From a bacterium (GTDB lineage: Bacteria > Vulcanimicrobiota > Vulcanimicrobiia > Vulcanimicrobiales > SCRA01): a stretch of DNA of 64,000 nt. Made by a program: the position numbers and the translations under genes. Shown piece by piece: positions 32,132 to 48,028 of the stretch. The stretch is from NCBI GenBank assembly GCA_004297985.1, contig SCRA01000046.1:37491-101490 (forward strand). The letters run 5' to 3'. The notes beneath the pieces are model-generated. The model saw only the letters and a program-made list of their open reading frames with translations. It did no database searches and was not told the origin of the DNA. The stretch's first letter is position 1. The number at the start of each line of letters is the position of its first letter.

Positions 32132-32824
32132 CTAATAGTAGAATTCGAGTGAATAGGTCAACGAGGCCGAGTAGGTCCCCGCTGAAATCGTGCTCGGAAC
32201 CGTGAGCTGAAGATCGACGCAGACGCTCTGGGCAACGTTCGCCGCACCTTTCCACGCCATCTCCCCGGGGCCGCCGGCGTTGGCAAACGGTGCGAAGCTC
32301 GTCGTGATGCCCTCCGCCAACCATCCGAGGTCACCCTGCGTCGGATAGGCGTACGTCGGGAAGGGAATGCTCGCGCCGTTGGCGCTGCCATAGACCCAGT
32401 CCTCGACGCGCCACAGGTACGGAGAATCGGCGTAGACGGTATAGGCGCAGGGGTAGATGTTGCTTCCGTAGCCTGCGTTGAGGACCGTCGTGTTCCCAAC
32501 GATGTGCAGGTACTGCGCCGTGGGATCGAGTTGCACGTTGATGGTCACGGGGACGTTGCCCTGTGTCGGCCCGGCTTGGGCTACCATGTGGTAGGCGGAG
32601 AGCGCGGCGGGATTCAGATGCGCGAGCAGCCCCGGCTGCGGAGCCGGATTGCGGACCGCCTGCGCGACCGTGCGCGGAACGTAGGCCACGGGGGACGGAG
32701 TCACCGTGATCGTCACCGAGATATTCTTCTGCGTCAGGGGATGCCAGACACCCGCCCACGCGGGGCCCGAGGCGACTGTCGCCGCCGCGGCGATGAAGCT
32801 GAGGACGATGCCGATGCGTTTCAC
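32132..32824 (-). CDS. secreted hypothetical protein, putative appendage subunit
   Basis: Signal peptide MKRIGIVLSFIAAAATVASGPAWA; C-terminal beta-strand-like TYSASLTYSLEFYY; last gene of the cluster; GTG start. Confidence 0.6.
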   Translation of the reverse strand: MKRIGIVLSFIAAAATVASGPAWAGVWHPLTQKNISVTITVTPSPVAYVPRTVAQAVRNPAPQPGLLAHLNPAALSAYHMVAQAGPTQGNVPVTINVQLDPTAQYLHIVGNTTVLNAGYGSNIYPCAYTVYADSPYLWRVEDWVYGSANGASIPFPTYAYPTQGDLGWLAEGITTSFAPFANAGGPGEMAWKGAANVAQSVCVDLQLTVPSTISAGTYSASLTYSLEFYY

Positions 32825-33489
32825 TTCGCCACCACCGTATAGACCACGTAGACCGAGAACTGCGTCACGGGCGCGCCGCCGGAGAGGCGCAACTGGTAGT
32901 CGTAGCCTTGCGTGGCCGAATTGCTCGGAAGCCCGATCGTCGAGTGCGCGTACGACCACACCAGCGCCGACGAAGGCGGCAAACCGGCGCCATAGGAGAT
33001 GCCTGTCGTCGCGCCGCTGCCCGTCACCATGGCGCTCGTCTTCGAGAACGGCACCGCCGCAGCGTACGGCGTATTCGTGCCGTTGCTTGGCAGCCAGAAG
33101 AGCGTCGTGTCGATGGGCCACGTTCCGCTGCTCGCCGACGTGAAGTCACTGCTTCCCTCGGCGAAGACTTGGAAGCCGCTGGAGTCGTTGGTGAGCACGG
33201 CAACCTGTGCCGCGTACTTGTAGAGGTAGTTATACCCCTGCACGACCTTGCCGAAGTCGACGTAGCCGCCGCCGGGGATGGCGCTCGGCCCGGCTGCGGG
33301 CGCAGGGCTGCTCGGGCCGCCTTGCGGTCCGAAGCCGCTCTGGAAGTTGGGCGCCACGGTCATCGAGATGATGACCGCCGTCTTCCAGGTCGCCTCCACG
33401 GAGCCGGTCGCCGCGCGCACGCGCGCCGTCGCCGCTGCGACCATTGTCACGGCGATGAGCAGTGCCGTGAACCCCCGTCTTGCGTTCAT
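32821..33489 (-). CDS. secreted pilin-like protein, putative appendage subunit
   Basis: Signal peptide; mature N-terminus ATGSVEATWKTAVIISMTVAPNFQSGFGPQG parallels that of the 38415-39215 product; C-terminus QFSVYVVYTVVAK. Confidence 0.6.
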   Translation of the reverse strand: MNARRGFTALLIAVTMVAAATARVRAATGSVEATWKTAVIISMTVAPNFQSGFGPQGGPSSPAPAAGPSAIPGGGYVDFGKVVQGYNYLYKYAAQVAVLTNDSSGFQVFAEGSSDFTSASSGTWPIDTTLFWLPSNGTNTPYAAAVPFSKTSAMVTGSGATTGISYGAGLPPSSALVWSYAHSTIGLPSNSATQGYDYQLRLSGGAPVTQFSVYVVYTVVAK

Positions 33490-33491
33490 CG

Positions 33492-36400
33492 CTAGTTCAA
33501 CACCAAGGTGAAGGTGACGATCGTGCTCCCTGGCGAGGTGCTCCCCGTCGAGTCGACGAGGAAGCTCATGATCGTATCCACCGGCTTGTGATAGGCTTGT
33601 CCGTTGTATGTCGAGATCGCAAGCCCGGGGTTCGATCCGCTCGGCGAGGCAATGACGGGCAGCGCGGCAAACGCCGCCTGGGCGATCGAGAAACCGCTGG
33701 CCGACGACGACGTAGCCGCGTCTCCTGCAACTTGCAGCTCCGGCTTGCTGCTACCGTTGAGCGGATTGTTGTTCGCCGAGGCGTACAGCGTCCAACTATC
33801 GGGCGAGACGGCATCGGAGGAGATGCTGGCATTGACGAGGTCGGTGGCGGTAAAGGTGCCGGTGAAACTCCCCAGCGTGATCAGCGTGGGGGACTGCGTC
33901 GTGTCGACCACGCAGCCCAGGCAGTTCGTGGCCGGCATCGAACCGCCGGGCCCCGGCTTGGGCAGCACCGTGCCTGTGCCGGACGGGGGCGTGATGATGT
34001 TCATCTGCGCATCGAAGACGACTTGCAGCGACCCAGCGCCGGCGTAGGGTGGTGTGGCATTCACGGTCCCGCCGCCTGCGCCGGTTGACGTTACCCTCGT
34101 GGGCCAATCGAAATAGCTTCCCAGATCATAGGGCGTCTCCGCGTTGAAGTAGAGATTGATCGACTGCCCGCTGGCGATATTGCAGCCCGTGAGGTTGATG
34201 ACGCCGTTGCCACCGCCGGCGGTGGCGCTGCCATAGTTGGAGGCGTTGAGCGAACCCGAGCACGTCCCGGGCGAGGCGGCGCCGGGTCCGTTCACGTACG
34301 GTGCCACGGCGAACTTCCAGAAGACGCCGGCTCCGTCCGTCGCGTTGATGAAGGCGCGCGTCTGCCCCGGAACGGTGATGTTCACGCTGGTGATCGTCTT
34401 CTGGCCGTTGTTGGCGATCTGGTAGAGGAACGAGCTCCCGTTGGGGTTATTGGCGTCGGTGCCGATCTGCGGCTGCGTGCTGCCCGGCACCGGCGTGGGG
34501 TTACCCGACGGCGGGAAGGCGCCCACGTAGCCGCCCACATCGGTGAACGCCACCGAGGCCGAGGTCGGACTGACCGTCAGCGTGGCGTTCTGGCTCGGCG
34601 CCGACGTTGCGCCGCCGTTCGCGCCGACCACCGTCCACGCGACGTTGTACGTTCCCGTCGTGGGGAACGGCGACGCCGCGTAGTTGAAGGTAATCGGCAG
34701 CGTCTGCCCAGGCGCGAGCGCGTTGGCCTCGTACGCCGATGAGCACGGCTTGGGCTGTCCGATCGGGCAGACCTGGATGACGTAGGTCGCCGGCGGCCCA
34801 CTTGCCGTCTGGTTGACGTACCAGCCGGCCGGCACCGCGATGCTGGTGGGAATTACGCCGCTCGGAACGCTGAGATCGATCTCATCGACGTAGTCGGGGA
34901 ACGGGCTCGAGGCGTTGCTGGTATTCGTGAAGTTCAGCACGGTCGTCGATGCCAGTCCCGTCGGCACGGTGTTGGGCGAGAAGACCGAGGTCATGGTCGT
35001 TGGATTAAGCGAGTAGACGGCAAGCTCCGTGGAGTCGATGTTGGTTGCCCCGACGATCGCGTTCTGCGTGCTTTGCGTCGAGCTCAGCGTATAGGGCGCC
35101 CCACCTCCGCTGGGGTTGTCGAAGTTCGCCACCATGGGGATCGACTGATAGCCGAACGGGATCTGAAACATCGGGAAGTTCAGCACGAAGACGGCGGTCT
35201 TATTGAAGCCCACACCGGCACATCCGCCGCGGCATTGAAGCTCGATCTGGTTGGTGGTCAGAGCGCCGTTGCTCTGCTGCGGCAGGACGCGCCAGCCCGT
35301 CTGATTGGCCCCGTTGACGGTGACGGACTGCAGGATGGGTGTGTTGGTGTTGCCGTCGTACGTGCTGGGGAAGGTCATCTCGAGGTCTTTGAGCGTCTCG
35401 TTCGGACCCTTGTTGACGACGGTCAGCGTCAACGAGTACGCCGCATTGGAGGGCGTCCCGCCGGTGTTGACGTCGTACATCGCCTGATTGAAGCGCGGCA
35501 GGTTGATCGGTGCGGGGCCATTGGTGACGCGCCATGCCTCCGTCGCCACGCCCGAGAATGCCCCGCCTTGCTGGAGCACCAGCAACGGGTTGGTGACGCT
35601 GTCGGAAGCGCTGTACGCGATGCCGTGCTGCGGCAAGATACCGCTCTGGATGTTACAGGGGCCGGTTTTGCAGACATTTCCGCTGGTCAGGCTCACTTGG
35701 ATGTTGAAGGCAAGCGTCGTGGCGCCGCTGAGCGTTGCGGTAGGGTTGGCGGGATCAGGCGTGGCGGAGATGGCGGTCGAGGCACCACCGACGTAGACGA
35801 TGTCCCAGAGGCTGCCGGCGCTGTCGGTGGCCGTCGTGTTGCCGCCGGGAAGGGATAGCTGCTCGCCCTGGCCGTCGTTACTGAGCCGTACACCGGAGAT
35901 GCCGTCGGCATTCCATGGGCCGAAGGCGCCGCCGGCAGCATTCGAGACGGTGACTTGCGCGGTCGTCCCGGGGACGGCCGTCGCCAGCACGTTGGTGAGC
36001 GGATTGGTCCAGGCGAACGCTCCCTGATAGCCAAGGATCGTGAACGACTTGGTTCCCAAGACGGTACCGGAGTTCCGGTCGTAGAGCTGAGCCGTGAGGA
36101 CGTTCGGCGCCAGGGGCGTGACCGTGGGACCCAGTGCCTCGAGCGTCGAGGCGTTGGCGGGGAACGGATTCTGCGTGAAGGTCGCACTGCCCGCGCCCTG
36201 CGTAGCCGTCGGCAACGTGCCGCTGGGTACGCCGGCGGAAGCGCCGTTGTTCAACACCATCCCGTTGGGGTCGCTGACGGTCAGCCCGATCGTGTGCCCG
36301 TTCGAGCCAGCAGGGAGCCCGGTAACACGGTAGGTGAGTCCCGTGACCGAGGCGTCGATAAAGCCGTCGTTTGCGAAGATATCGCCCAGGTTCGTCCCCG

Positions 36401-37478
36401 TGCCGAGCGTCGCGTTGTAGGGCGTGAGCGTCCACGCGATCGTCGACGGCTCGATCGAAACCTGCTGCGTACCCACCAAGTCGCTCGTCGTGGCGTCGTA
36501 GAGCTGGACGGTGTAGGTCCCGGTGCGCGGCGTCGCGCCCACGGGCCAACCCACCGTCATCTGCCCCGTGGGCACCGGCGACCCGACCGTCGACCCGGCC
36601 ACGAAGCAGGTTCCGGGCTGCGAGTTGGACGAGGCGGGAACGCTGTAGACGCATGGGAGGTTGGCGGCACCGGTGTAGACCCAGCCGAAGGCGTAGCTGT
36701 GCGCGGGATTCAGGCCGCTCGCGCTAGCGTAGACCGTGCTGCCCGCCGTGAAGTCCGTAGCGGGATGGAGCAGTGCGCCGTCGGCGTACGTATCGAAGTG
36801 CTGGCTGGCCAGCACCACCACGTAGACGACGGAGTCATAGTTGCCCGTGTTGTTGTTCTGGGCGACGAACGTCCAGACGCCGGAGTACGGCGCCGCCGTT
36901 CCGGGATTCGGCGTGGAATCATATGGCGTGCCGAAGTAGAGGGGGAAGTAGCCCCAGCAGTTCCCGTTGTTGTCGGTGGGACCGGCGCTGCCCGTGAACG
37001 ACGTGCCGTCCGGCGGGAAGATCAGGTAGGTGTAGTTCGTCGATGGCTGGAGCCCGGCGCACTGAATGTAGTTGAAGTTGTTGTACGAGAGCGTCGCGTC
37101 GTAGATCTGGTAGATCGTGCTGTCGCCGGTGAGAACGATCGTTCCGCCTGAGGCGCTGGCGATGCGGCGGTGGCCGGCCATCGAGGCCAGGGCACGCCCC
37201 ACGGTCATCGGCGCGGGGCGCCGCAACCCGGCTCTCGAGGTGATACGGACGATGTGTCGCCCGGCCGCGGCGGTCGCGGCAGCCGGCGTGGCTGTCGGCG
37301 CGACGCGCAACGGCAGCGGTGGAGGTGTCGGCGGCTCGGGAAGGCGACGTGTGCCGCCGGTGCCGGGAGCCTGCGGGCCGGCCAGGACGAGCTGCGAAAC
37401 CATCGCAAGCGCTGCGATGATCCCCGAGACCGTCAGCCAGAACCGGCCAATGCGTGACATCCCAACAAGCCCCTTCAC
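33492..37478 (-). CDS. 1328-aa secreted protein with DUF11/Ig-like segments, putative adhesin or appendage tip
   Basis: N-terminal signal/TM segment (RIGRFWLTVSGIIAALAMVSQLVLA), long Thr/Ser/Asn/Gly-rich beta-type sequence, C-terminal ...STIVTFTLVLN. Confidence 0.6.
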   Translation of the reverse strand: MKGLVGMSRIGRFWLTVSGIIAALAMVSQLVLAGPQAPGTGGTRRLPEPPTPPPLPLRVAPTATPAAATAAAGRHIVRITSRAGLRRPAPMTVGRALASMAGHRRIASASGGTIVLTGDSTIYQIYDATLSYNNFNYIQCAGLQPSTNYTYLIFPPDGTSFTGSAGPTDNNGNCWGYFPLYFGTPYDSTPNPGTAAPYSGVWTFVAQNNNTGNYDSVVYVVVLASQHFDTYADGALLHPATDFTAGSTVYASASGLNPAHSYAFGWVYTGAANLPCVYSVPASSNSQPGTCFVAGSTVGSPVPTGQMTVGWPVGATPRTGTYTVQLYDATTSDLVGTQQVSIEPSTIAWTLTPYNATLGTGTNLGDIFANDGFIDASVTGLTYRVTGLPAGSNGHTIGLTVSDPNGMVLNNGASAGVPSGTLPTATQGAGSATFTQNPFPANASTLEALGPTVTPLAPNVLTAQLYDRNSGTVLGTKSFTILGYQGAFAWTNPLTNVLATAVPGTTAQVTVSNAAGGAFGPWNADGISGVRLSNDGQGEQLSLPGGNTTATDSAGSLWDIVYVGGASTAISATPDPANPTATLSGATTLAFNIQVSLTSGNVCKTGPCNIQSGILPQHGIAYSASDSVTNPLLVLQQGGAFSGVATEAWRVTNGPAPINLPRFNQAMYDVNTGGTPSNAAYSLTLTVVNKGPNETLKDLEMTFPSTYDGNTNTPILQSVTVNGANQTGWRVLPQQSNGALTTNQIELQCRGGCAGVGFNKTAVFVLNFPMFQIPFGYQSIPMVANFDNPSGGGAPYTLSSTQSTQNAIVGATNIDSTELAVYSLNPTTMTSVFSPNTVPTGLASTTVLNFTNTSNASSPFPDYVDEIDLSVPSGVIPTSIAVPAGWYVNQTASGPPATYVIQVCPIGQPKPCSSAYEANALAPGQTLPITFNYAASPFPTTGTYNVAWTVVGANGGATSAPSQNATLTVSPTSASVAFTDVGGYVGAFPPSGNPTPVPGSTQPQIGTDANNPNGSSFLYQIANNGQKTITSVNITVPGQTRAFINATDGAGVFWKFAVAPYVNGPGAASPGTCSGSLNASNYGSATAGGGNGVINLTGCNIASGQSINLYFNAETPYDLGSYFDWPTRVTSTGAGGGTVNATPPYAGAGSLQVVFDAQMNIITPPSGTGTVLPKPGPGGSMPATNCLGCVVDTTQSPTLITLGSFTGTFTATDLVNASISSDAVSPDSWTLYASANNNPLNGSSKPELQVAGDAATSSSASGFSIAQAAFAALPVIASPSGSNPGLAISTYNGQAYHKPVDTIMSFLVDSTGSTSPGSTIVTFTLVLN

Positions 37479-37526
37479 GTCGTCCGTGACGCTGCTGCGC
37501 TCGACGCAGCCCCATCGGCTACGGCC

Positions 37527-38309
37527 TCAGCGCACGGTAAAAGTCTTCTCTCCTCCGGAGAGGTTCGGCCCGCCGTAGTCGATCAACGCGATCGCCGTGT
37601 ACGATCCGGGCTGAAGCTTCTTGCCGACCACGTCGACGATGCGCTGACCTCCGCGCTCGACGAGCATCTGCTTTGGAATCTCGATCCGCTCCACGACCGT
37701 GGAGCCTTGCTTGACTTCGATCCGCCCGTTGAGGTACACGTGCGCGTTGCCGGTGTTCTTGAAGCCGACGAGATAGCGCTCGCCCTCGGGCGAGGTGCGC
37801 GCAGAGACGTCGTCGACTTCTCCGGAGAGTTGAAGGGTGTTGGGAACCAGCTCGTAGATCTTGGCCGCGATGCGCTCCGAGAACGATACCCCTCCAGGCT
37901 TGCGCGTGGGGCGCGTCTGGAAGAAGGCGATCACGGAGTGCTCTCCGCTGGCCGCCGCCGGCACCGCCACCGAGACGCGAACCTGCGTCAGCGTATTCGG
38001 GGCGACGTCGAACTCACGGGGATTGAGCGAGACCCACGGGGCCATCGAGTACTTGTTCTTCCCGGGGGGAAGGAAGACGTACTGCCCGTTCGCACCGACC
38101 GTGAAGTCGACCAGTGAGACTTGGATGTGTACCGTGTCCGCCCCGGTATTCCGTACCGTGATCGGGATCGTCTGTCTCTGCCCGGCGGAGGCTTCCATCT
38201 CGTACTTCGCCGGGGAGACGTCCAGCCCCAAGTCGGCCGGAGCCGAGCGCGGAACGAGGAGAACGAATCCACACAGAGCCAGAGCCGCCGACCATCGTGC
38301 CACAGTCAT
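37527..38309 (-). CDS. periplasmic chaperone-like Ig-fold protein (PapD-like or DUF916-like)
   Basis: LGLDVSPAKYEMEASAGQRQTIPITVRNTGADTVHIQVSLVDFTVGANGQYVFLPPGKNKYSMAPWVSLNPREFDVAPNTLTQVRVSVAVPAAASGEHSVIAFF. Confidence 0.7.
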   Translation of the reverse strand: MTVARWSAALALCGFVLLVPRSAPADLGLDVSPAKYEMEASAGQRQTIPITVRNTGADTVHIQVSLVDFTVGANGQYVFLPPGKNKYSMAPWVSLNPREFDVAPNTLTQVRVSVAVPAAASGEHSVIAFFQTRPTRKPGGVSFSERIAAKIYELVPNTLQLSGEVDDVSARTSPEGERYLVGFKNTGNAHVYLNGRIEVKQGSTVVERIEIPKQMLVERGGQRIVDVVGKKLQPGSYTAIALIDYGGPNLSGGEKTFTVR

Positions 38310-38414
38310 ACTCTTCGTTATCGGCGGCTGAGCGCGCCTGGCGGAGCCGAAGTTCCGCCAGGAGTATCACTCTCCCGTTGATTCCTGCTGTTCCCGCGTC
38401 CCTTCTCGTGATCT

Positions 38415-39215
38415 CTAGTTCGGGACCAAGACCACTGTCATGATCGCATTGGACGAAGCGGTCGACGGCGCGCCCTTGTCGAGGTTGATCTGAACGTCCT
38501 GTGCCGCGTAGACCGTGCCCGCCGGAGCCGTGGCCCCGCCGGCGATCTTCAAGCCGTTGGTACCGGTCTCGGTGTAGTACTCGAAACCGGCGGTGACGAT
38601 GCCGGCACCGGGGCCGCCGTCCTGGCTACCAGGGCCGCCGCCGCCGTTGGTGATGGCGCCGCCCGTCCCGTTGGGAATCGGTGCGCCGCCAGCCGCGCAG
38701 CCGGTGACTGCGCCCGCGGTGAAAGTCGCCGCGGCCACCGTCGTGGTGCGAGTCGAGGCGGCCGCGGCAGCGGCAGCCGGAGCCAGCGGAAACGCGGCGC
38801 CGCCGTCCGGGAAGGCGCAGAAGCCCGTGCCGCTGGCCGGAGCGGCGTCCATGTACTCATAGACGTTGTAGCCGCCCGCGTCGTTGGTTTGAATCGCCGT
38901 CTCGATCGCGTTCTGATAGAGGCAGCCCACCGGGGCCGCGAGACTGGGATTCAAGGTTCCGTACGTGAGGTTCAGCGTGGTCTCAGCAGCCGGCGCACCG
39001 CAGACGCCTGCGGCGCTTGGCGTGAGCGCCGGCGCGACGGTGCCCTGCGTGAACGCGCCGGCACCGAACTGCGTGGCCAACTGCATCGAGGCGGAGACAG
39101 CGACGTTCCAGTTCAGCTTGACGGAGCCGTAGTGCGGCGCGGGGGCGGCGAACGCGGCAGTCGACGTGGCCGCCATGCCCACTGCGAGCATGGAGGCTGC
39201 GAAAGCTCGATTCAT
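38415..39215 (-). CDS. secreted pilin-like protein, putative major appendage subunit
   Basis: Signal peptide MNRAFAASMLAVGMAATSTAAFA; mature APAPHYGSVKLNWNVAVSASMQLATQFGAGAFTQG; C-terminus SSNAIMTVVLVPN. Confidence 0.6.
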   Translation of the reverse strand: MNRAFAASMLAVGMAATSTAAFAAPAPHYGSVKLNWNVAVSASMQLATQFGAGAFTQGTVAPALTPSAAGVCGAPAAETTLNLTYGTLNPSLAAPVGCLYQNAIETAIQTNDAGGYNVYEYMDAAPASGTGFCAFPDGGAAFPLAPAAAAAAASTRTTTVAAATFTAGAVTGCAAGGAPIPNGTGGAITNGGGGPGSQDGGPGAGIVTAGFEYYTETGTNGLKIAGGATAPAGTVYAAQDVQINLDKGAPSTASSNAIMTVVLVPN

Positions 39216-39405
39216 GACGTATGTTCCCTTTCGGCTAGAGCTACGGGAGAGTCCGAGATTGCCATCCTTGGCAGACGACGCTCTCACATCACGTATGATA
39301 CGCGAGGTCAAGAGATGCTGCTAGGTGATTCGGCCGCGCGAAGGCGTTTCTTTACGGCGAGTTTACGGCGCCGGCTCGCCATGTAAACGGCGCTTAACAA
39401 AAATG

Positions 39406-42400
39406 CTAGCGTTGCGCAGCATTCAGCGCGAACGGATAGGCCTTCCCCGCCTTGTTCACGATCGTACCGTGATACGGCAGACCGTGCGACCACAACCGGA
39501 CGTCGAAAGTATACATCTCACCCCGCGCCTCCGGCAGCTTGAACGCGTAGCCGTCTTCGAAGCGCACGACGTCACCGGGCTGGACGGGCGCGAGGATCTT
39601 CGCCGTCACCGCAATCGTATGCCCCGGCTGCGGCCGATGCGTGAGCACGTGCGCGGCGATCAGCGGTACCTTCGGATCCACAGTCACCGATCCGTCGCCG
39701 ACACCGTGTGTGGCCCCCTCGACGGAGACGCGTAGCGCGTAGTCGCCGGCTTGGAGGATCGGCACGAGGAAACTGCCGGTCCAGGCACGCAGCGCAACGT
39801 CGAAGCGCAGCGGGAAGGAGCCGAAGGCATCGCTCTGCTGGGTGACGGCACTGGGATGCTGAGCGGTCGTGCGAACGATGAGCTTGACGATGCCGCCCGG
39901 CGGCGCGTGCTCAGGCCGCACCGTTACCGAGACACCTGCCTTCTGCCCGTTGTCGAAGGAGAAGACCACGGACTTCGCCGCGGTGCCGAGCTTGAAGACG
40001 ACGCCGCCACTCTCGGATCCGCCGAAGACTTGCACCGGTTCGTCCGGTCCCTGCACCACGCTCTCGTCTTCGGGCAGCGTCTCGGGATCGACGCTGACCT
40101 GGTAGCTCCCCGGTGGAACGTCGTCGAGCAGGAAGCTCCCGTCGTCGTTGGTGATCGCTGCGTAGTCACCGGGCTCGGCCACGACGTAGACGTTGCGCGC
40201 TCCCTGCAGCGAGCCGAAGCCTGCGTCTGGCGCATAGAGCACGTGACCGCTGATCGATCCCAGCGGGAGCGCCGTGTAGTCCACCGTGGTCAACTGTCCC
40301 TGCACCACCTGCACGGTACGTTGCGGATCGCCCCGTAATTGGAACGATGCCGGCACACTGGCTACGGCCAACGCCACGTGGTGCGTCCCCGGGAGGAGAC
40401 CGCCAACCTGATAGGCGCCGTCGGGACCAGTCGTAGCGTGATGACCTCCGTCGACCACGATGTCGACTCCGGCAATGGGCTGCGATCCCTTGGACGTGGC
40501 GGCATACAGGTGCCCGGCGATGCCCGCGAAGGCACCGACGCCGAAGTCCATCGTCGCGGTCTGCCCGCCCCCCACCTCGACGCTCGCCTGTCCGCGTTCG
40601 GCCACCAACCCATTGGCAATCGTGCCCTGCACGATGGAGACCGTGTGGAAGCCCTGGCGGACGAAGCGGAACTGATAGCCGCCGTCGATATCCGTGCGCA
40701 CGGGCGTCGTACCGTCGAGCAAGATCAAGACGTTGCCCAGGCCCCGCTGTCCGAAGCTTGCGGCTGAGTTCGCGGAGACCACGTACACGTGGCCCGCGAT
40801 GGTGGCGGGCAAGTTCGGATTGGCGCGCCCGCTGTAGCGCGTGGTGCCCAGCGAGAGCGGCCCCACGAGATCGACGTTCAAGCTCGACGCGCTCGAGGCA
40901 CCCAGACCCGACTGGTGCGAGCGCGTCGCTGTGATGTTCAAGGCGACAAGAGATGAGAGCCGGCGGATCACCCCGATGCTGTACGAGCGCTGTGAGGTGC
41001 CCACACCGCCGCTGTCATCGGAGGCGAACTGCTCGCCCAGCGTGAGATCGGTACGCGGCCCCAGACGGCGGACGTAGGAGAGCAGCGTCTGGCGCTGGTT
41101 CGTCGCCGCACCGACGCTGCGCTGCTGGCCGAAGGAACTCTGCGCCTGGAGGAAGCCCTCACCGATCGTATGCGCGATCGCGAACGTCTCTTGCGACTGC
41201 ACGGCTGTGCCGCCAGAATTGGCGGCCGTTGCGCGCTGCAACGTCTGCGAGAGGGAGAATCCCTTGAGCGTCTCGGTGGTCGTCACGCCATCGGCGCGGT
41301 TGACGGAGGTCTCTCCGCCGGCAGTCGAACGCGCGTCGCTCTCCAAGAGCGTCACGGAGCTGGTCCCGACGGGCTGACTGTACGTCACGTTGCGCCGGGT
41401 CGTGCGATTCCATTGGCCGCTCGAGAATGCGTCATCGCGACCGAGGTCGACGAGCAGACTTCCCGCTTTGCCGACGCCGCGCTGGAGCGTCAGCTCCCAT
41501 CCGCTGTCGGCGTTCGCGGTCGAGGTCAAGGAAGTGAAGCCGCCGGGAATGGAGCGGATCGAGAGCGACGCGTAGCCGCGGTTCCAGGGGGCGTTGAACT
41601 GTGCCGCAGTAGCGATGCGCGCGCCGTCAGCGGCGCCCGCAACGCCCTTTGTTCGATCCAGGGCGGCCTCGAGATTGGTGCTGAGATGTGAGGAGTAGCG
41701 CTGGTAGGTGGCATCGGCGATGACATTGCCGGCCTTGGACTGTTCACCGCGCGAGGCGATCAGCGTTCCGGTGAGCAGCGAGCTCTTCGGCAGGAAGTAT
41801 TGGCGACGGACGCCCAGCGATCGGAAGCCCTCGCCGCCGGCTTGCGTGGCCGACGCCCCGATGAGATCTAACTCGCCGTTGCGACGGGGGACCCGAAGCT
41901 CCAAGCCGCGGGCAAAGCCGCCGATGCCGACCTGAGAGTCGCTCGGGCCGGTGAGGGCACCGTACGCCAGCGCGTACGTGGCGGCCCGGTAGGCGGCCTG
42001 GATCTGACCGACGGACGAGGTGCCCGAGGTGTAGCCCACCGGGTCCTGGATCGAGAGCGAGGTCTGCTCCGTACGACGCTCGAGCGTCAAGATGAACGAA
42101 ACGCCTAACACGTCGCTCGCCGCGAGGCTGGAGGCCGTTGACGTGCGGTGGGAGCCGATGTCAAATCCACCGGCGGCGGCAAACTGAAGTGAACCCCGTC
42201 CGAAGAGCGGAGCGCGCCGCGGCCGCGGATCGCTCCGCTCCCCCGCCCCTGGGACGGACGAGGCCTCGGGACTCGGCACTTCCACGGGTATGGGAACGTC
42301 GTTGGGGATCAAGAGTGGGGCCTCGGTGGCGACGGGAGCCGGGGGCAGCCTCGGAGGAGCCGCGCCTTGGGCGAGCACGCGTCCCCCGCCGGGGGGTCCT

Positions 42401-42630
42401 TCCGGCGGAGTCAGCGCCACAGCGCGAGCGAGACTCCGGTCTATCGCGACGAGCGCAACTTGCTCATGTGCCGGGGCATGGGCGGGCGCGGGGAGAGCCC
42501 ACGCTCCAGAGGCCGCCATCGAGCGAGGCGTCAGGGGCACTCCCAAGGGCATGGCGATGCCTACGCCTGCCGCGAGCATGGCAAGGCCAAGGGAGATCAG
42601 GAGCGTTGGAAGCCGTCTCGACCGTATCAC
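39406..42630 (-). CDS. outer-membrane beta-barrel protein with repeated CNA_B/carboxypeptidase-regulatory-like domains, putative usher-like protein
   Basis: Signal peptide; Pro-rich N-terminus; ~450 aa of alternating beta-barrel-type sequence; repeated DGGYQFRFVRQGFHTVSI, TGPDGAYQVGGLLPGTHHVALA, TNDDGSFLLDDVPPGSYQVSV. Confidence 0.6.
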   Translation of the reverse strand: MIRSRRLPTLLISLGLAMLAAGVGIAMPLGVPLTPRSMAASGAWALPAPAHAPAHEQVALVAIDRSLARAVALTPPEGPPGGGRVLAQGAAPPRLPPAPVATEAPLLIPNDVPIPVEVPSPEASSVPGAGERSDPRPRRAPLFGRGSLQFAAAGGFDIGSHRTSTASSLAASDVLGVSFILTLERRTEQTSLSIQDPVGYTSGTSSVGQIQAAYRAATYALAYGALTGPSDSQVGIGGFARGLELRVPRRNGELDLIGASATQAGGEGFRSLGVRRQYFLPKSSLLTGTLIASRGEQSKAGNVIADATYQRYSSHLSTNLEAALDRTKGVAGAADGARIATAAQFNAPWNRGYASLSIRSIPGGFTSLTSTANADSGWELTLQRGVGKAGSLLVDLGRDDAFSSGQWNRTTRRNVTYSQPVGTSSVTLLESDARSTAGGETSVNRADGVTTTETLKGFSLSQTLQRATAANSGGTAVQSQETFAIAHTIGEGFLQAQSSFGQQRSVGAATNQRQTLLSYVRRLGPRTDLTLGEQFASDDSGGVGTSQRSYSIGVIRRLSSLVALNITATRSHQSGLGASSASSLNVDLVGPLSLGTTRYSGRANPNLPATIAGHVYVVSANSAASFGQRGLGNVLILLDGTTPVRTDIDGGYQFRFVRQGFHTVSIVQGTIANGLVAERGQASVEVGGGQTATMDFGVGAFAGIAGHLYAATSKGSQPIAGVDIVVDGGHHATTGPDGAYQVGGLLPGTHHVALAVASVPASFQLRGDPQRTVQVVQGQLTTVDYTALPLGSISGHVLYAPDAGFGSLQGARNVYVVAEPGDYAAITNDDGSFLLDDVPPGSYQVSVDPETLPEDESVVQGPDEPVQVFGGSESGGVVFKLGTAAKSVVFSFDNGQKAGVSVTVRPEHAPPGGIVKLIVRTTAQHPSAVTQQSDAFGSFPLRFDVALRAWTGSFLVPILQAGDYALRVSVEGATHGVGDGSVTVDPKVPLIAAHVLTHRPQPGHTIAVTAKILAPVQPGDVVRFEDGYAFKLPEARGEMYTFDVRLWSHGLPYHGTIVNKAGKAYPFALNAAQR

Positions 42631-42831
42631 AGCGTGCAGAACCGTACGTTAGGGATTGTCGGTCGAACGGCCGGCCTGCCATAGGGCCCCGGCGGACCTT
42701 ACCTCAGCTTTACGCACGACGGGACCAAATGATGAGGTTTTGCGCCGAGCCGGCCGAAGTAGAGAGAGGGACCGCCTAGACGTGTCGAGGCGGCCTCTTC
42801 GCCATCAGACCATGGAGGGTCCGCGCAGGAC

Positions 42832-44187: not shown

Positions 44188-44811
44188 CTAAATCTCCAGC
44201 AACTCCAACATCGCGACGAATGCCTCGCCGCGGCGTGCGCGCGCGCCGGCAAGCAGATCGTCACGGCCGCCGCGATGCAGCGCATGCGCTGCCGCCAGCG
44301 CGACGACGTCGGATGCGTCGTCGAGCGCGTCGACGATGCGCTCGTAGCGCCCGCGCCGCTCGAATCCCTCGATAGCGAGGATGCGCTCTGCATCGCTCCC
44401 CGACGCCAGCGCCTGGTCAAAGATCTCCAGCGACGTCTCACCGTCGCACCATCCCAGCGCCGAGAGCACTGCGGCGCGCACGTCGGGCTCGCGCTCTTCG
44501 TGCCACGCGCGCCCCAGCACCGTCGCCGCGTCGCGATTACCGCGCGCGCCGAGCTCGTCGACCAGCGCGATGCGCGCTGCGAGATCACCGGGGACGCCGG
44601 AGCCGGCGGCGCGCCACCACGGGATGACCGGCGGCACCGCAGGTGCGGCCTCGCTCTCCCGTCGCGTTGCGGGCGGCTGCGGCTCCGTGCGCTCGATGCG
44701 CGTGAGCCAGAGCCCCCCGATGGCGAGCGCCACTGCGGCGAGGATCGCCAGCGCGATCGCTGCCTCGGCGCGTGCCGGCGAGATGTCGAGGAGTACGCTA
44801 GGCGGTAGCAC
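44188..44811 (-). CDS. membrane-anchored HEAT-repeat-like protein
   Basis: N-terminal TM (AAIALAILAAVALAIGGLWL) then helical repeats DLAARIALVDELGARGNRDAATVLGRAWHEEREPDVRAAVLSALGWCD. Confidence 0.65.
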   Translation of the reverse strand: MLPPSVLLDISPARAEAAIALAILAAVALAIGGLWLTRIERTEPQPPATRRESEAAPAVPPVIPWWRAAGSGVPGDLAARIALVDELGARGNRDAATVLGRAWHEEREPDVRAAVLSALGWCDGETSLEIFDQALASGSDAERILAIEGFERRGRYERIVDALDDASDVVALAAAHALHRGGRDDLLAGARARRGEAFVAMLELLEI

Positions 44812-47800
44812 GCTCCCCCAATCGCGCGGCGATCAGGCGAACCTGCTCGAGCGCGGAATCGAGCGGCTCCGGCGAGCGGGCTGCAAGGACGCGGTGGAAC
44901 TCGCCGGGCGGGAGGCGTTCCAAATCGCCGAACGCTTCGAGGAGGCGCGAACGATACGCTGCGAGTGCCTGGCCGAGGGCCGTTCCAACCTCACCCGCTC
45001 CGGCGGTCGGGAGCAGGGCCGCCAGCGCACGCCATGGCCGTGCACCGCCGAGCGGGGCCTGCTCGAGATCGTCGGCACTCGCCGCCGCCTCAGCCGCGCT
45101 CATCGCTCCCGTGAGCACGAGATAAGCCGGGGGGATTGGCTCGCTGGCCGCGATCCGCTGCTCCGCGATGCCGCGCATGAGCGCGACCAGCGTACCGCGC
45201 GCCGCACGGTCCTCGAGATCTTTCTGCGAGACCAGGTAACGCGGTAGGCGCAACTTGATGAAGAGGTGATCGAGCAGCTCGTGGAGCCGCTCGCGCTCGC
45301 CCTCGAGCAGCTCCTCCAACGTGGAGGCGCCGATGAGTCGATCCGGCAGGAAGGCCCGTATCGCGAAGAGATGCGGGAAGAACGCGCCGCCCTCGACTCC
45401 GGAGATCAGACGCATCGCTCGCGACAGGCGTTCCGGCGTGTGCGTCGATATCGTGGCCACGCTCCCCTCGACGCTCTCCACCTGCTGAGGCGGAGGCGGC
45501 AGGGTGCTCGCGATCTGGATGCGTTCAACAACCGGCTCCGGCTCGATTACCGCTGCCTGGGGCGGGGCGGGTGCCTCGACGACGGGCGCGGGCTCCGGCT
45601 GGGCAACGAGACGAGGAACGCGGGGTTGGAGTACCACGCCGAGCACGGAGAACGGAAGCGGCGCCCCCACGCCGAACGCGGGAAGCGACCGAACGACCGA
45701 TGGCGTGCTCTCCAGCTCGAGACCGCCTTCATCCCACGCCATGCGCGCGCGTGAAACGAGCTGGCTCCCGGGCTCGGCCGGCGAGTTGACCGCGGCACGC
45801 CACGTGATGACGAGCGCCGTCTCCGGGGCCACACCGGCGAGCGTGAGACCACCCACCAGCGGCGAGGCGCCGGCGATGTCGACCACGCCCACGCCGTTGA
45901 TCTCGGTGGAACCGGGAAGATAGGTGGTCTGTGCCGGTGGTTCGACGGTGATCGTGAGGCGGCCGGCGCTGCCGTCGCCGTCGTTGCTCGCCTCGAGCGC
46001 GCACGTGAGGATCTCGCCCGGCGAGGCTTCGTCGGAGGGATCTACGCGCAACGTCGCGGAGGCAAACGATGGCATCGCCGTGACGCCAATCTCCACCGGC
46101 TCGAAGAGCATGCTCGGTCCGTTGGCGCAGGAGAGGCGCGCGCCAACCGGGAGCAGCGTCCCCGCGCGCACGCCTGCCGCGAGCGCGAGCGTAAGCATGC
46201 CCGCCGCGGCGCCGCCCGGCTCGACCGTACCCAGCGCGATGGTGCGTTCGCCGCGCCGCGAGGCGCCCTCGACGCTTTCGAGCAAGAGCTCCGAAGGGAG
46301 ATCCAGCACCAACACAACGTCTCTCGCGGCGTCGGTACCCTCGTTGCGCGCCACATAGGAGATCTGAACCGTCTTCCCGGGGCGCACCGGTTGCTCGGAG
46401 ACGACGCGCAGGCGTTGAGCGTTCTGCGGGAAACGCGGGCGCGAGACGGCGATCACGGCGATCGTGCCGATATCGCTCTCCGCGACATCCTGCGCGGCGA
46501 CTTTCGCCCACAGGCGCAACTCGCTCTTGTCGGCCAGAGGCGTGGCCACGCGGGCGATCACGTCCAGGCGCACGGGCTCGAGCGGAGCCATGTCGCCGAC
46601 GCGCACGCTCCCCTCCTCGATCTCCAGCGTCGCGCCCTCGCGGCGGACGCGCAACGACTCCAAGCCTTCTCCGGCGGCCACGCTCACGCGCACGTCGCGT
46701 GCGAGATCCGTGCCGCCGTTGCTGACGACCAGCCGCCCTACCACCTCCTCGCCGGGCACCGCGTGGTTGGCGCTGCGCAGTTCGAAGCGATTGATCGCCT
46801 CCGGGAACTCCGGAGCGGAACGCACGCGCAACGCCTTGTCGAAGGCACGCTCACCGCCGCGCCACTGCATGGCGGCGTGCACGGCAAGGCGACGGCCGGT
46901 CGGCGCCGGCGAGGCCACGATCGCCTCCACCGCCGCGCGGCCGCTGCCACCAGGCGGGATCTCCGCGATACGCACGGCAGGGTCGTCTCCAACGGCGCGC
47001 CCGTTCTCCGTGGTTGAGCCGGGGGAGTAGACGAGCCCCTCGGGCAGGGTGAGGGCGATCCGCACGTCCTCGGCGGTGCCGCTGCCGACGTTATGGTAGG
47101 AGACGCCGATGCGAAGGCGTTGGCCAGGGGTGACCTCATCGCCGGCGTCGACCTCGATGCCGGTGCCGACGCCGAACTCGGCGGGCGAGCGCACTTCTAG
47201 GGCGGCGGCGCCGAGCTCGAATTCTCCCTCCTCGCGTGCGCCGACCCAGCCGTGCGCCGAGATCAGCACGCCGTCTGGCAACGGCTGGTCGATCTTGGCA
47301 CCGTAGGTGACAATCAGCGTTCGCGAGGGCGCGAGGGCCGCGCACACTACGCGCTGCTCCTGCACCGGGAACGGTTCGCCGGCTCCCTCGCCGACTTGGC
47401 GCCCGTCGATGCGCGCGGAGCGCGCGACGAAGGTCGTGCGGTCGGGAACGGGGAGTGCGAGGGTGACATCACGCGCCGTCGACTGACCGTGATTATGAAT
47501 CGCCACGCGCAGGGTGATCTCGGAGCCCGGCCGGTTGCCGTGAGGGGCCTCGATGGCCAGGCCGGTCAATTCGCCGCGCATCTGCGGGCGACTGCGCACG
47601 GCGACGATCGCCAAGTTCGATCCCACCGGCGTCGTACCGTCGGCGGCAAGCGCAGCTTGCACGGCCAATTGCGTGCCGTCTTCGATGGGACCTTCGACGC
47701 GAAACTCGAGCGAAACCGTGCGCGCCTCGCCGGGGGAGAGGTCGGCGACGGCGCCGCCGGCAGCGGACAAGAAGGGGGCCGTGCCTCCTTCGTCCGGGCA

Positions 47801-48028
47801 GCGTTCCTCGTCGATCTGGGCGGAGCCCGCGACGTACCGGCCGTGTTCCGGCAGGCGCAGCTTGACGCGCACGCCGGTGGCAATCGCGCTTCCGACATTG
47901 GAGAACGCAAAGCGAACGCGAACGGTCTCTCCAGGTTTGACCGAACGGTCCGGAGAAAGCGAGAGGGTTTTCAGCCCTTCGGCCAAAGGCTGCGCACCCG
48001 GCGCGAAGATTTCCGTAAGCGTCGACAT
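44798..48028 (-). CDS. DUF11-type multi-Ig repeat protein with C-terminal helical domain, no obvious signal peptide
   Basis: Six repeats of the PG(x)V(x)..N.G...A..V.......L..P type, Pro-rich linker, then a helical domain (FAIRAFLPDRLIGASTLEELLEGERERLHELLDHLFIKLRLPRYLVSQKDLEDRAARG). Confidence 0.7.
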   Translation of the reverse strand: MSTLTEIFAPGAQPLAEGLKTLSLSPDRSVKPGETVRVRFAFSNVGSAIATGVRVKLRLPEHGRYVAGSAQIDEERCPDEGGTAPFLSAAGGAVADLSPGEARTVSLEFRVEGPIEDGTQLAVQAALAADGTTPVGSNLAIVAVRSRPQMRGELTGLAIEAPHGNRPGSEITLRVAIHNHGQSTARDVTLALPVPDRTTFVARSARIDGRQVGEGAGEPFPVQEQRVVCAALAPSRTLIVTYGAKIDQPLPDGVLISAHGWVGAREEGEFELGAAALEVRSPAEFGVGTGIEVDAGDEVTPGQRLRIGVSYHNVGSGTAEDVRIALTLPEGLVYSPGSTTENGRAVGDDPAVRIAEIPPGGSGRAAVEAIVASPAPTGRRLAVHAAMQWRGGERAFDKALRVRSAPEFPEAINRFELRSANHAVPGEEVVGRLVVSNGGTDLARDVRVSVAAGEGLESLRVRREGATLEIEEGSVRVGDMAPLEPVRLDVIARVATPLADKSELRLWAKVAAQDVAESDIGTIAVIAVSRPRFPQNAQRLRVVSEQPVRPGKTVQISYVARNEGTDAARDVVLVLDLPSELLLESVEGASRRGERTIALGTVEPGGAAAGMLTLALAAGVRAGTLLPVGARLSCANGPSMLFEPVEIGVTAMPSFASATLRVDPSDEASPGEILTCALEASNDGDGSAGRLTITVEPPAQTTYLPGSTEINGVGVVDIAGASPLVGGLTLAGVAPETALVITWRAAVNSPAEPGSQLVSRARMAWDEGGLELESTPSVVRSLPAFGVGAPLPFSVLGVVLQPRVPRLVAQPEPAPVVEAPAPPQAAVIEPEPVVERIQIASTLPPPPQQVESVEGSVATISTHTPERLSRAMRLISGVEGGAFFPHLFAIRAFLPDRLIGASTLEELLEGERERLHELLDHLFIKLRLPRYLVSQKDLEDRAARGTLVALMRGIAEQRIAASEPIPPAYLVLTGAMSAAEAAASADDLEQAPLGGARPWRALAALLPTAGAGEVGTALGQALAAYRSRLLEAFGDLERLPPGEFHRVLAARSPEPLDSALEQVRLIAARLGERATA

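Follow-up and report, generated by a model that had tools for sequence, protein, structure and literature searches.

A conserved six-gene locus of Eremiobacterota encoding a predicted usher-like barrel protein and a PapD-type chaperone: a candidate diverged chaperone-usher system

The window, that is, the whole 64,000-nucleotide stretch of DNA analyzed here, contains six collinear open reading frames (ORFs) on the minus strand between positions 32132 and 42630, which are referred to as P1 to P6 (Table 1). The initial annotation had listed all six at these coordinates, and only two starts were revised by homology. The P2 ORF, listed as 38415-39311, was given a start at about 39215 (266 aa), and that of P6, listed as 32132-33121, probably begins not at 33121 but at the GTG at 32824, which gives a product of 230 aa and an overlap with the P5 stop. 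From P1 to P6 the intergenic gaps measure about 190, 105, 48, and 2 bp, followed by an overlap, which agrees with the narrowing toward the 3' end described earlier. The homologues with 27 to 76% identity, the open frames, and the same gene order in many genomes indicate that these are not chance ORFs. On one side the operon borders on mreB/mreC/PBP2-type genes, and on the opposite side on a divergently oriented flagellin gene. Beyond the flagellin gene lies a 1,076-aa DUF11-repeat protein (44798-48028), as in three loci of the same genus (L013, L014, and L015), some of which also harbor a HEAT-repeat protein there. Searches of Pfam and NCBIfam provided no confident functional family for the six genes except carboxypeptidase-regulatory-like domains in P1. 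Neither a canonical usher nor PapD nor a spore-coat-U family was matched in the locus, consistent with the absence of FimD, PapD, and spore-coat-U signatures noted in the initial annotation.

Table 1. Genes and features of the locus (positions in the window)
Feature	Position	Strand	Basis
P1, usher-like outer-membrane barrel protein, 1074 aa	39406..42630	-	ORF, CarboxypepD_reg, AlphaFold, Foldseek, hhalign
P1 layout: signal, Pro-rich linker, predicted barrel, about five Ig/prealbumin-like domains	39406..42630	-
P1 residues 25-147, disordered, Pro-rich, in place of usher N-terminal domain	42190..42558	-	pLDDT, relatives' consensus
P1 residues 148-594, predicted plug-less barrel, ~24-26 long strands	40849..42189	-	DSSP on model
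P1 residues 609-1069, about five Ig/prealbumin-like C-terminal domains	39424..40806	-	Pfam, model, hhalign
P2, small secreted pilin-like subunit, likely 266 aa	38415..39215	-	homology to P5; start by homology
P3, predicted two-Ig-domain periplasmic chaperone (PapD-type/WxLIP-like), 260 aa	37527..38309	-	profile, fold
P4, large secreted protein, 1328 aa, pilin-like C-terminal domain	33492..37478	-	hhalign, C-terminal strand
P5, small secreted pilin-like subunit, C-terminal ...YTVVAK strand	32821..33489	-	hhalign, model
P6, small secreted protein, about 230 aa, C-terminal strand common to P5	32132..32824	-	hhalign; start by homology
Flagellin paralogue, divergent from P1	42832..44187	+	Flagellin_N/C; linkage to P1 across family
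Hairpin GACC-ATGGAG-GGTC in flagellin leader, candidate CsrA-type site	42808..42821	+	AnGGA-loop hairpin conservation

As judged by sequence comparison, the six genes form a conserved unit in Eremiobacterota (WPS-2), the phylum to which the window is assigned by kinship. Scanning of GTDB genomes yielded thirty named loci, and the operon occurs in two gene orders, namely, P1-P2-P3-P4-P5-P6 and P1-P2-P3-P5-P6-P4. When P1 and P3 were both sought in the same 41 genomes, strong matches to the two were found together in 15 and to neither in 25; no genome contained P3 without P1, and the single one with P1 but without P3 (G002) is explained by a contig that ends at this place (Fisher's test, P of about 2.5e-10). 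P3 was present in 46 of the 149 genomes of the phylum, nearly all of them within one order. One genome (G030) has a second, rearranged P1 locus (L021) with duplicated subunit-chaperone pairs. The genome from which the window derives encodes Omp85, and the cell is therefore diderm.

The AlphaFold model of P1, built with an alignment of 27 relatives (mean pLDDT of 74, pTM of 0.47), starts with a signal helix, followed by a Pro-rich, disordered region up to residue 147, then a series of strands, and finally Ig domains. The Pro-rich N terminus, the barrel-type segment of ~450 aa, and the carboxypeptidase-regulatory-like domains reported earlier are thus all present. The exact number of long strands assigned to the barrel (about 24 to 26) is uncertain. 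The model therefore predicts the arrangement of an usher, an outer-membrane barrel of ~24 strands followed by Ig-like C-terminal domains. In a Foldseek search against the Protein Data Bank (PDB), ranks 1 to 10 were all FimD/PapC (E values of 4.4e-17 to 1.8e-12), and the best unrelated barrel followed with 5.1e-8; the whole-protein TM-scores were low (0.2 to 0.47). Over most of residues 25 to 147 the pLDDT was only 27 to 37, and the consensus of the relatives is also Pro-rich here, which leaves the model without the usher N-terminal domain (NTD) that serves chaperone recruitment. The plug-like Ig domain that the initial annotation had suggested looking for within the barrel was not found either, as the model has no domain inserted between the barrel strands.

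The search of the P1 sequence against the PDB gave nothing useful, and the usher family PF00577 matched neither P1 nor any other protein of its genome. With hhalign, in turn, a profile of 33 P1 proteins matched that of 24 canonical ushers from the same order (97.6%; E value of 2.7e-12) in a collinear alignment of 414 columns. On their own, the C-terminal domains gave 96.1%, the first two or three of them matching the usher C-terminal domains, whereas no homology to canonical ushers was detected for the barrel alone (10.8%), so that the homology between P1 and ushers rests on the C-terminal domains together with the fold. CarboxypepD_reg-type domains like those of P1 are common elsewhere; control proteins with such domains from the same genome mostly scored below 40% against the ushers (one reached 55%) and P1 as a single sequence 47%, but these controls, being single sequences, are not equivalent to the 33-sequence P1 profile.

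A second subfamily of usher-like proteins, of ~700 to 780 aa, exists in Eremiobacterota next to P3-type chaperones (L030, L171 to L175, and L179). It shares with P1 the Pro-rich linker and similar C-terminal domains (hhalign of 97.0% to P1 over 127 columns) but is shorter and retains an N-terminal region weakly similar to Cu_amine_oxidN1, which P1 lacks. One of these loci, in a genome of the same class (L171; 7328-10498 and 13425-16019), encodes two large Big_2-repeat proteins, 55% identical, beside P3-type chaperones.

P3 is predicted to be a two-Ig-domain chaperone of the PapD type, in agreement with the Ig-fold chaperone initially proposed. Across both domains, its profile matched that of the canonical PapD-type chaperones found in the same order (hhalign of 97.3%; E value of 1.7e-11). 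The structural model was derived from a natural in-frame read-through of the chaperone and P5 in another locus (L049); the separate domains were modeled confidently, the interface between them was not (pTM of 0.47). Foldseek ranked WxLIP first, followed by CfaA, YadV, CsuC, and Caf1M. No Pfam match to PapD_N (PF00345) was obtained for P3, and the nearest Pfam family, WxLIP_PGBD, scored 21.9 bits and hence below the cut-off of 27.3; at an E value of <0.01 this family matched 17 of the 21 P3 relatives. The P3 sequence search against the PDB retrieved WxLIP only (E value of 0.02). One proline is invariant across all chaperone-usher chaperones (PMC4654587). In P3 it corresponds to P97, which aligns with the invariant proline of the canonical chaperones and is itself invariant in alignment A1 and conserved to at least 90% in A8. 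The subsequent arginine, typical of archaic and alternative chaperones (Arg89 of CsuC, a carboxylate anchor; PMC4654587), does not occupy the aligned position of P3. Basic residues are conserved at two further positions (K35 and K150; 19 of the 21 sequences) and may be comparable to the classical anchor pair; K150 lies within an alternating hydrophobic, G1-like stretch (residues 141 to 151).

The remaining four products are related to each other to different degrees. P2 and P5 are homologous secreted subunits (hhalign of 99.1%), and the C-terminal 220 aa of P4, with a conserved ...YTLxxN strand, resemble P2 (83.6%) and P5 (70.7%), so that P4 is a large protein with a subunit-like domain at its C-terminal end and hence a candidate adhesin or large subunit, possibly tip-adhesin-like. 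P6 aligned with the last 31 columns of P5 at 91.5%. Unrelated controls in these comparisons stayed below 13%. Against 27 SCPU proteins of the order, P2, the P4 C terminus, P5, and P6 reached at best 30.9%, over 16 columns near the N terminus. None of P2, P4, P5, and P6 had a Pfam hit, WxL domains included.

Among the 34 distinct loci for which upstream DNA is available, 32 have a flagellin gene that abuts P1 divergently; the second P1 locus mentioned above (L021) and a divergent locus (L031) have no flagellin beside them. Elsewhere, the same genome encodes another flagellin and an FlgL-like gene with csrA next to them, as well as a FliA-type sigma factor. Upstream of flagellin, 23 of 31 loci contain the motif GCCGAT[AG], against 0.5 expected, and 9 of 32 contain it upstream of P1, against 0.8 expected; two-box sigma-28-like sites were detected in 11 of 31 loci on the flagellin side (0.26 expected) and 11 of 32 on the P1 side (0.34 expected). 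Sigma-28-like promoter motifs hence occur on both sides of the divergent region, in different clades; no strict two-box site was detected in that of the window itself (42632-42831). Of 31 flagellin leaders, 26 contain an AnGGA-loop hairpin ahead of the gene start, against a shuffle average of 0.5. Because these loci are related by descent, the shuffles overstate the significance of the promoter motifs and of the hairpin alike. The stems differ between loci yet stay paired, and essentially no CsrA-type leader hairpins were found on the P1 side. Promoters and hairpin are suggestive of a control shared with motility.

The likeness to classical chaperone-usher systems (FimD/PapC and FimC/PapD) comprises a large outer-membrane barrel with C-terminal Ig-like domains, for which FimD/PapC are the nearest folds in the PDB, a chaperone with two Ig domains, a number of small secreted subunits whose C-terminal strand is hydrophobic, and one large subunit. 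The differences are the missing NTD and plug of P1, its about five instead of two C-terminal domains, an operon with no match to PF00577 or PF00345, and subunits unrelated to known pilins by profile. By anatomy, the system is thus most likely chaperone-usher-like: it lacks the PF00577 match, NTD, and plug, whereas fold, chaperone, and synteny agree. The initial annotation had made its proposal depend on a barrel in P1, an Ig/PapD fold in P3, and co-occurrence of the genes in relatives, and all three were supported, the barrel and the chaperone fold as predictions, with the usher-like character of P1 supported by fold and C-terminal domains. It had left open whether the locus is a highly diverged branch or was assembled independently; the profile-level links from P1 to canonical ushers and from P3 to canonical chaperones favor the former over the latter.

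These links would also be expected if the locus were an ordinary archaic (sigma-type) chaperone-usher system that had drifted past the Pfam thresholds and worked exactly like Csu, and the collinear usher alignment fits such a view. Archaic systems with SCPU pilins do occur elsewhere in the order: among its 83 genomes, canonical PF00577 ushers were present in 15 and SCPU proteins in 14 (loci L063 to L066, L067 to L080, and L084 to L109; the phylum is not named in PMC4654587). However, canonical loci exist separately in other genomes (e.g., G018, G042, G049, and G050), P1 has no NTD or plug and carries extra C-terminal domains, the subunits show no SCPU similarity, and the signature arginine is absent from the aligned position of P3 (PMC4654587), which makes this explanation quite improbable. 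The near-constant flagellin neighbor, along with the sigma-28-like sites on both sides, could alternatively mean that the operon makes a flagellum-associated structure (a sheath, filament cap, or decoration) built together with the adjacent flagellin. We consider this very unlikely, since a set of chaperone, barrel, and subunits needs no flagellar role, two loci lack the adjoining flagellin, and shared control accounts for the linkage equally well.

Gram-positive WxL/WxLIP (DUF916-DUF3324) clusters offer a further comparison, WxLIP being the nearest single family of P3 by both Pfam and Foldseek. According to PMC10599100, their gene content is parallel, with a small protein, a large one with the same C-terminal domain, and an interacting protein, and WxLIP is predicted there to complete the WxL beta-sandwich with a strand. 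The operon might then encode a non-polymerizing surface complex in which P3, as a WxLIP-type partner, caps or anchors the pilin-like domains of P2, P5, and P4, and P1 acts as an anchoring porin or receptor rather than a conduit. This is unlikely in view of the absence of WxL domains, the score of P3 below the WxLIP cut-off, its sequence without a C-terminal membrane helix and thus without a membrane anchor, and the presence of an outer-membrane barrel in a diderm cell; in addition, P1 resembles ushers and not anchors, and P3 also matches real chaperone-usher chaperones. A bolder possibility, which we regard as doubtful though worth stating, is that a WxLIP-like chaperone serves an usher-like barrel, with WxL and chaperone-usher systems forming one superfamily and P1 a minimal usher.

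We therefore favor, with a probability of roughly 70%, the reading that the six genes specify a secretion and assembly system of the chaperone-usher type, most likely so far diverged that no family model recognizes it and with an usher built differently. In known ushers, the NTD and the plug recruit complexes and gate the channel. Building on the conservation of the genes, the predicted barrel and chaperone folds, the subunit homology, and the flagellin linkage, we propose that P2, P5, P6, and P4 would be exported by Sec and bound in the periplasm by P3, probably by lending its G1 strand to their incomplete beta-sandwich. P1 in the outer membrane would take up the chaperone-subunit complexes on its C-terminal Ig-like array instead of an NTD, and the subunits would pass outward through the plug-less barrel. 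Outside, they may polymerize by strand exchange into a surface fiber or chain in which P4 would be the large adhesive subunit, and expression is probably tied to the flagellar program via the shared divergent region.

Chaperone-usher systems have been listed in Proteobacteria, Cyanobacteria, and Deinococcus-Thermus only (PMC4654587), and in the literature searched we found no paper on such systems in Eremiobacterota. The locus would thus represent a separate chaperone-usher-type branch in these little-studied soil bacteria. A P1 pore without the textbook parts for cargo recruitment and channel closure provides a test of what an usher really needs, and with P3 lying between PapD and WxLIP, it becomes possible to test whether Gram-negative pili and Gram-positive WxL complexes share an origin. 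If the bolder possibility were true, a single strand-complementation superfamily would include both the Gram-positive WxL clusters and the chaperone-usher pili of Gram-negative bacteria as its branches, and P1 would be a minimal usher working without NTD or plug. Finally, the near-constant pairing with flagellin suggests a built-in link of swimming to surface attachment.
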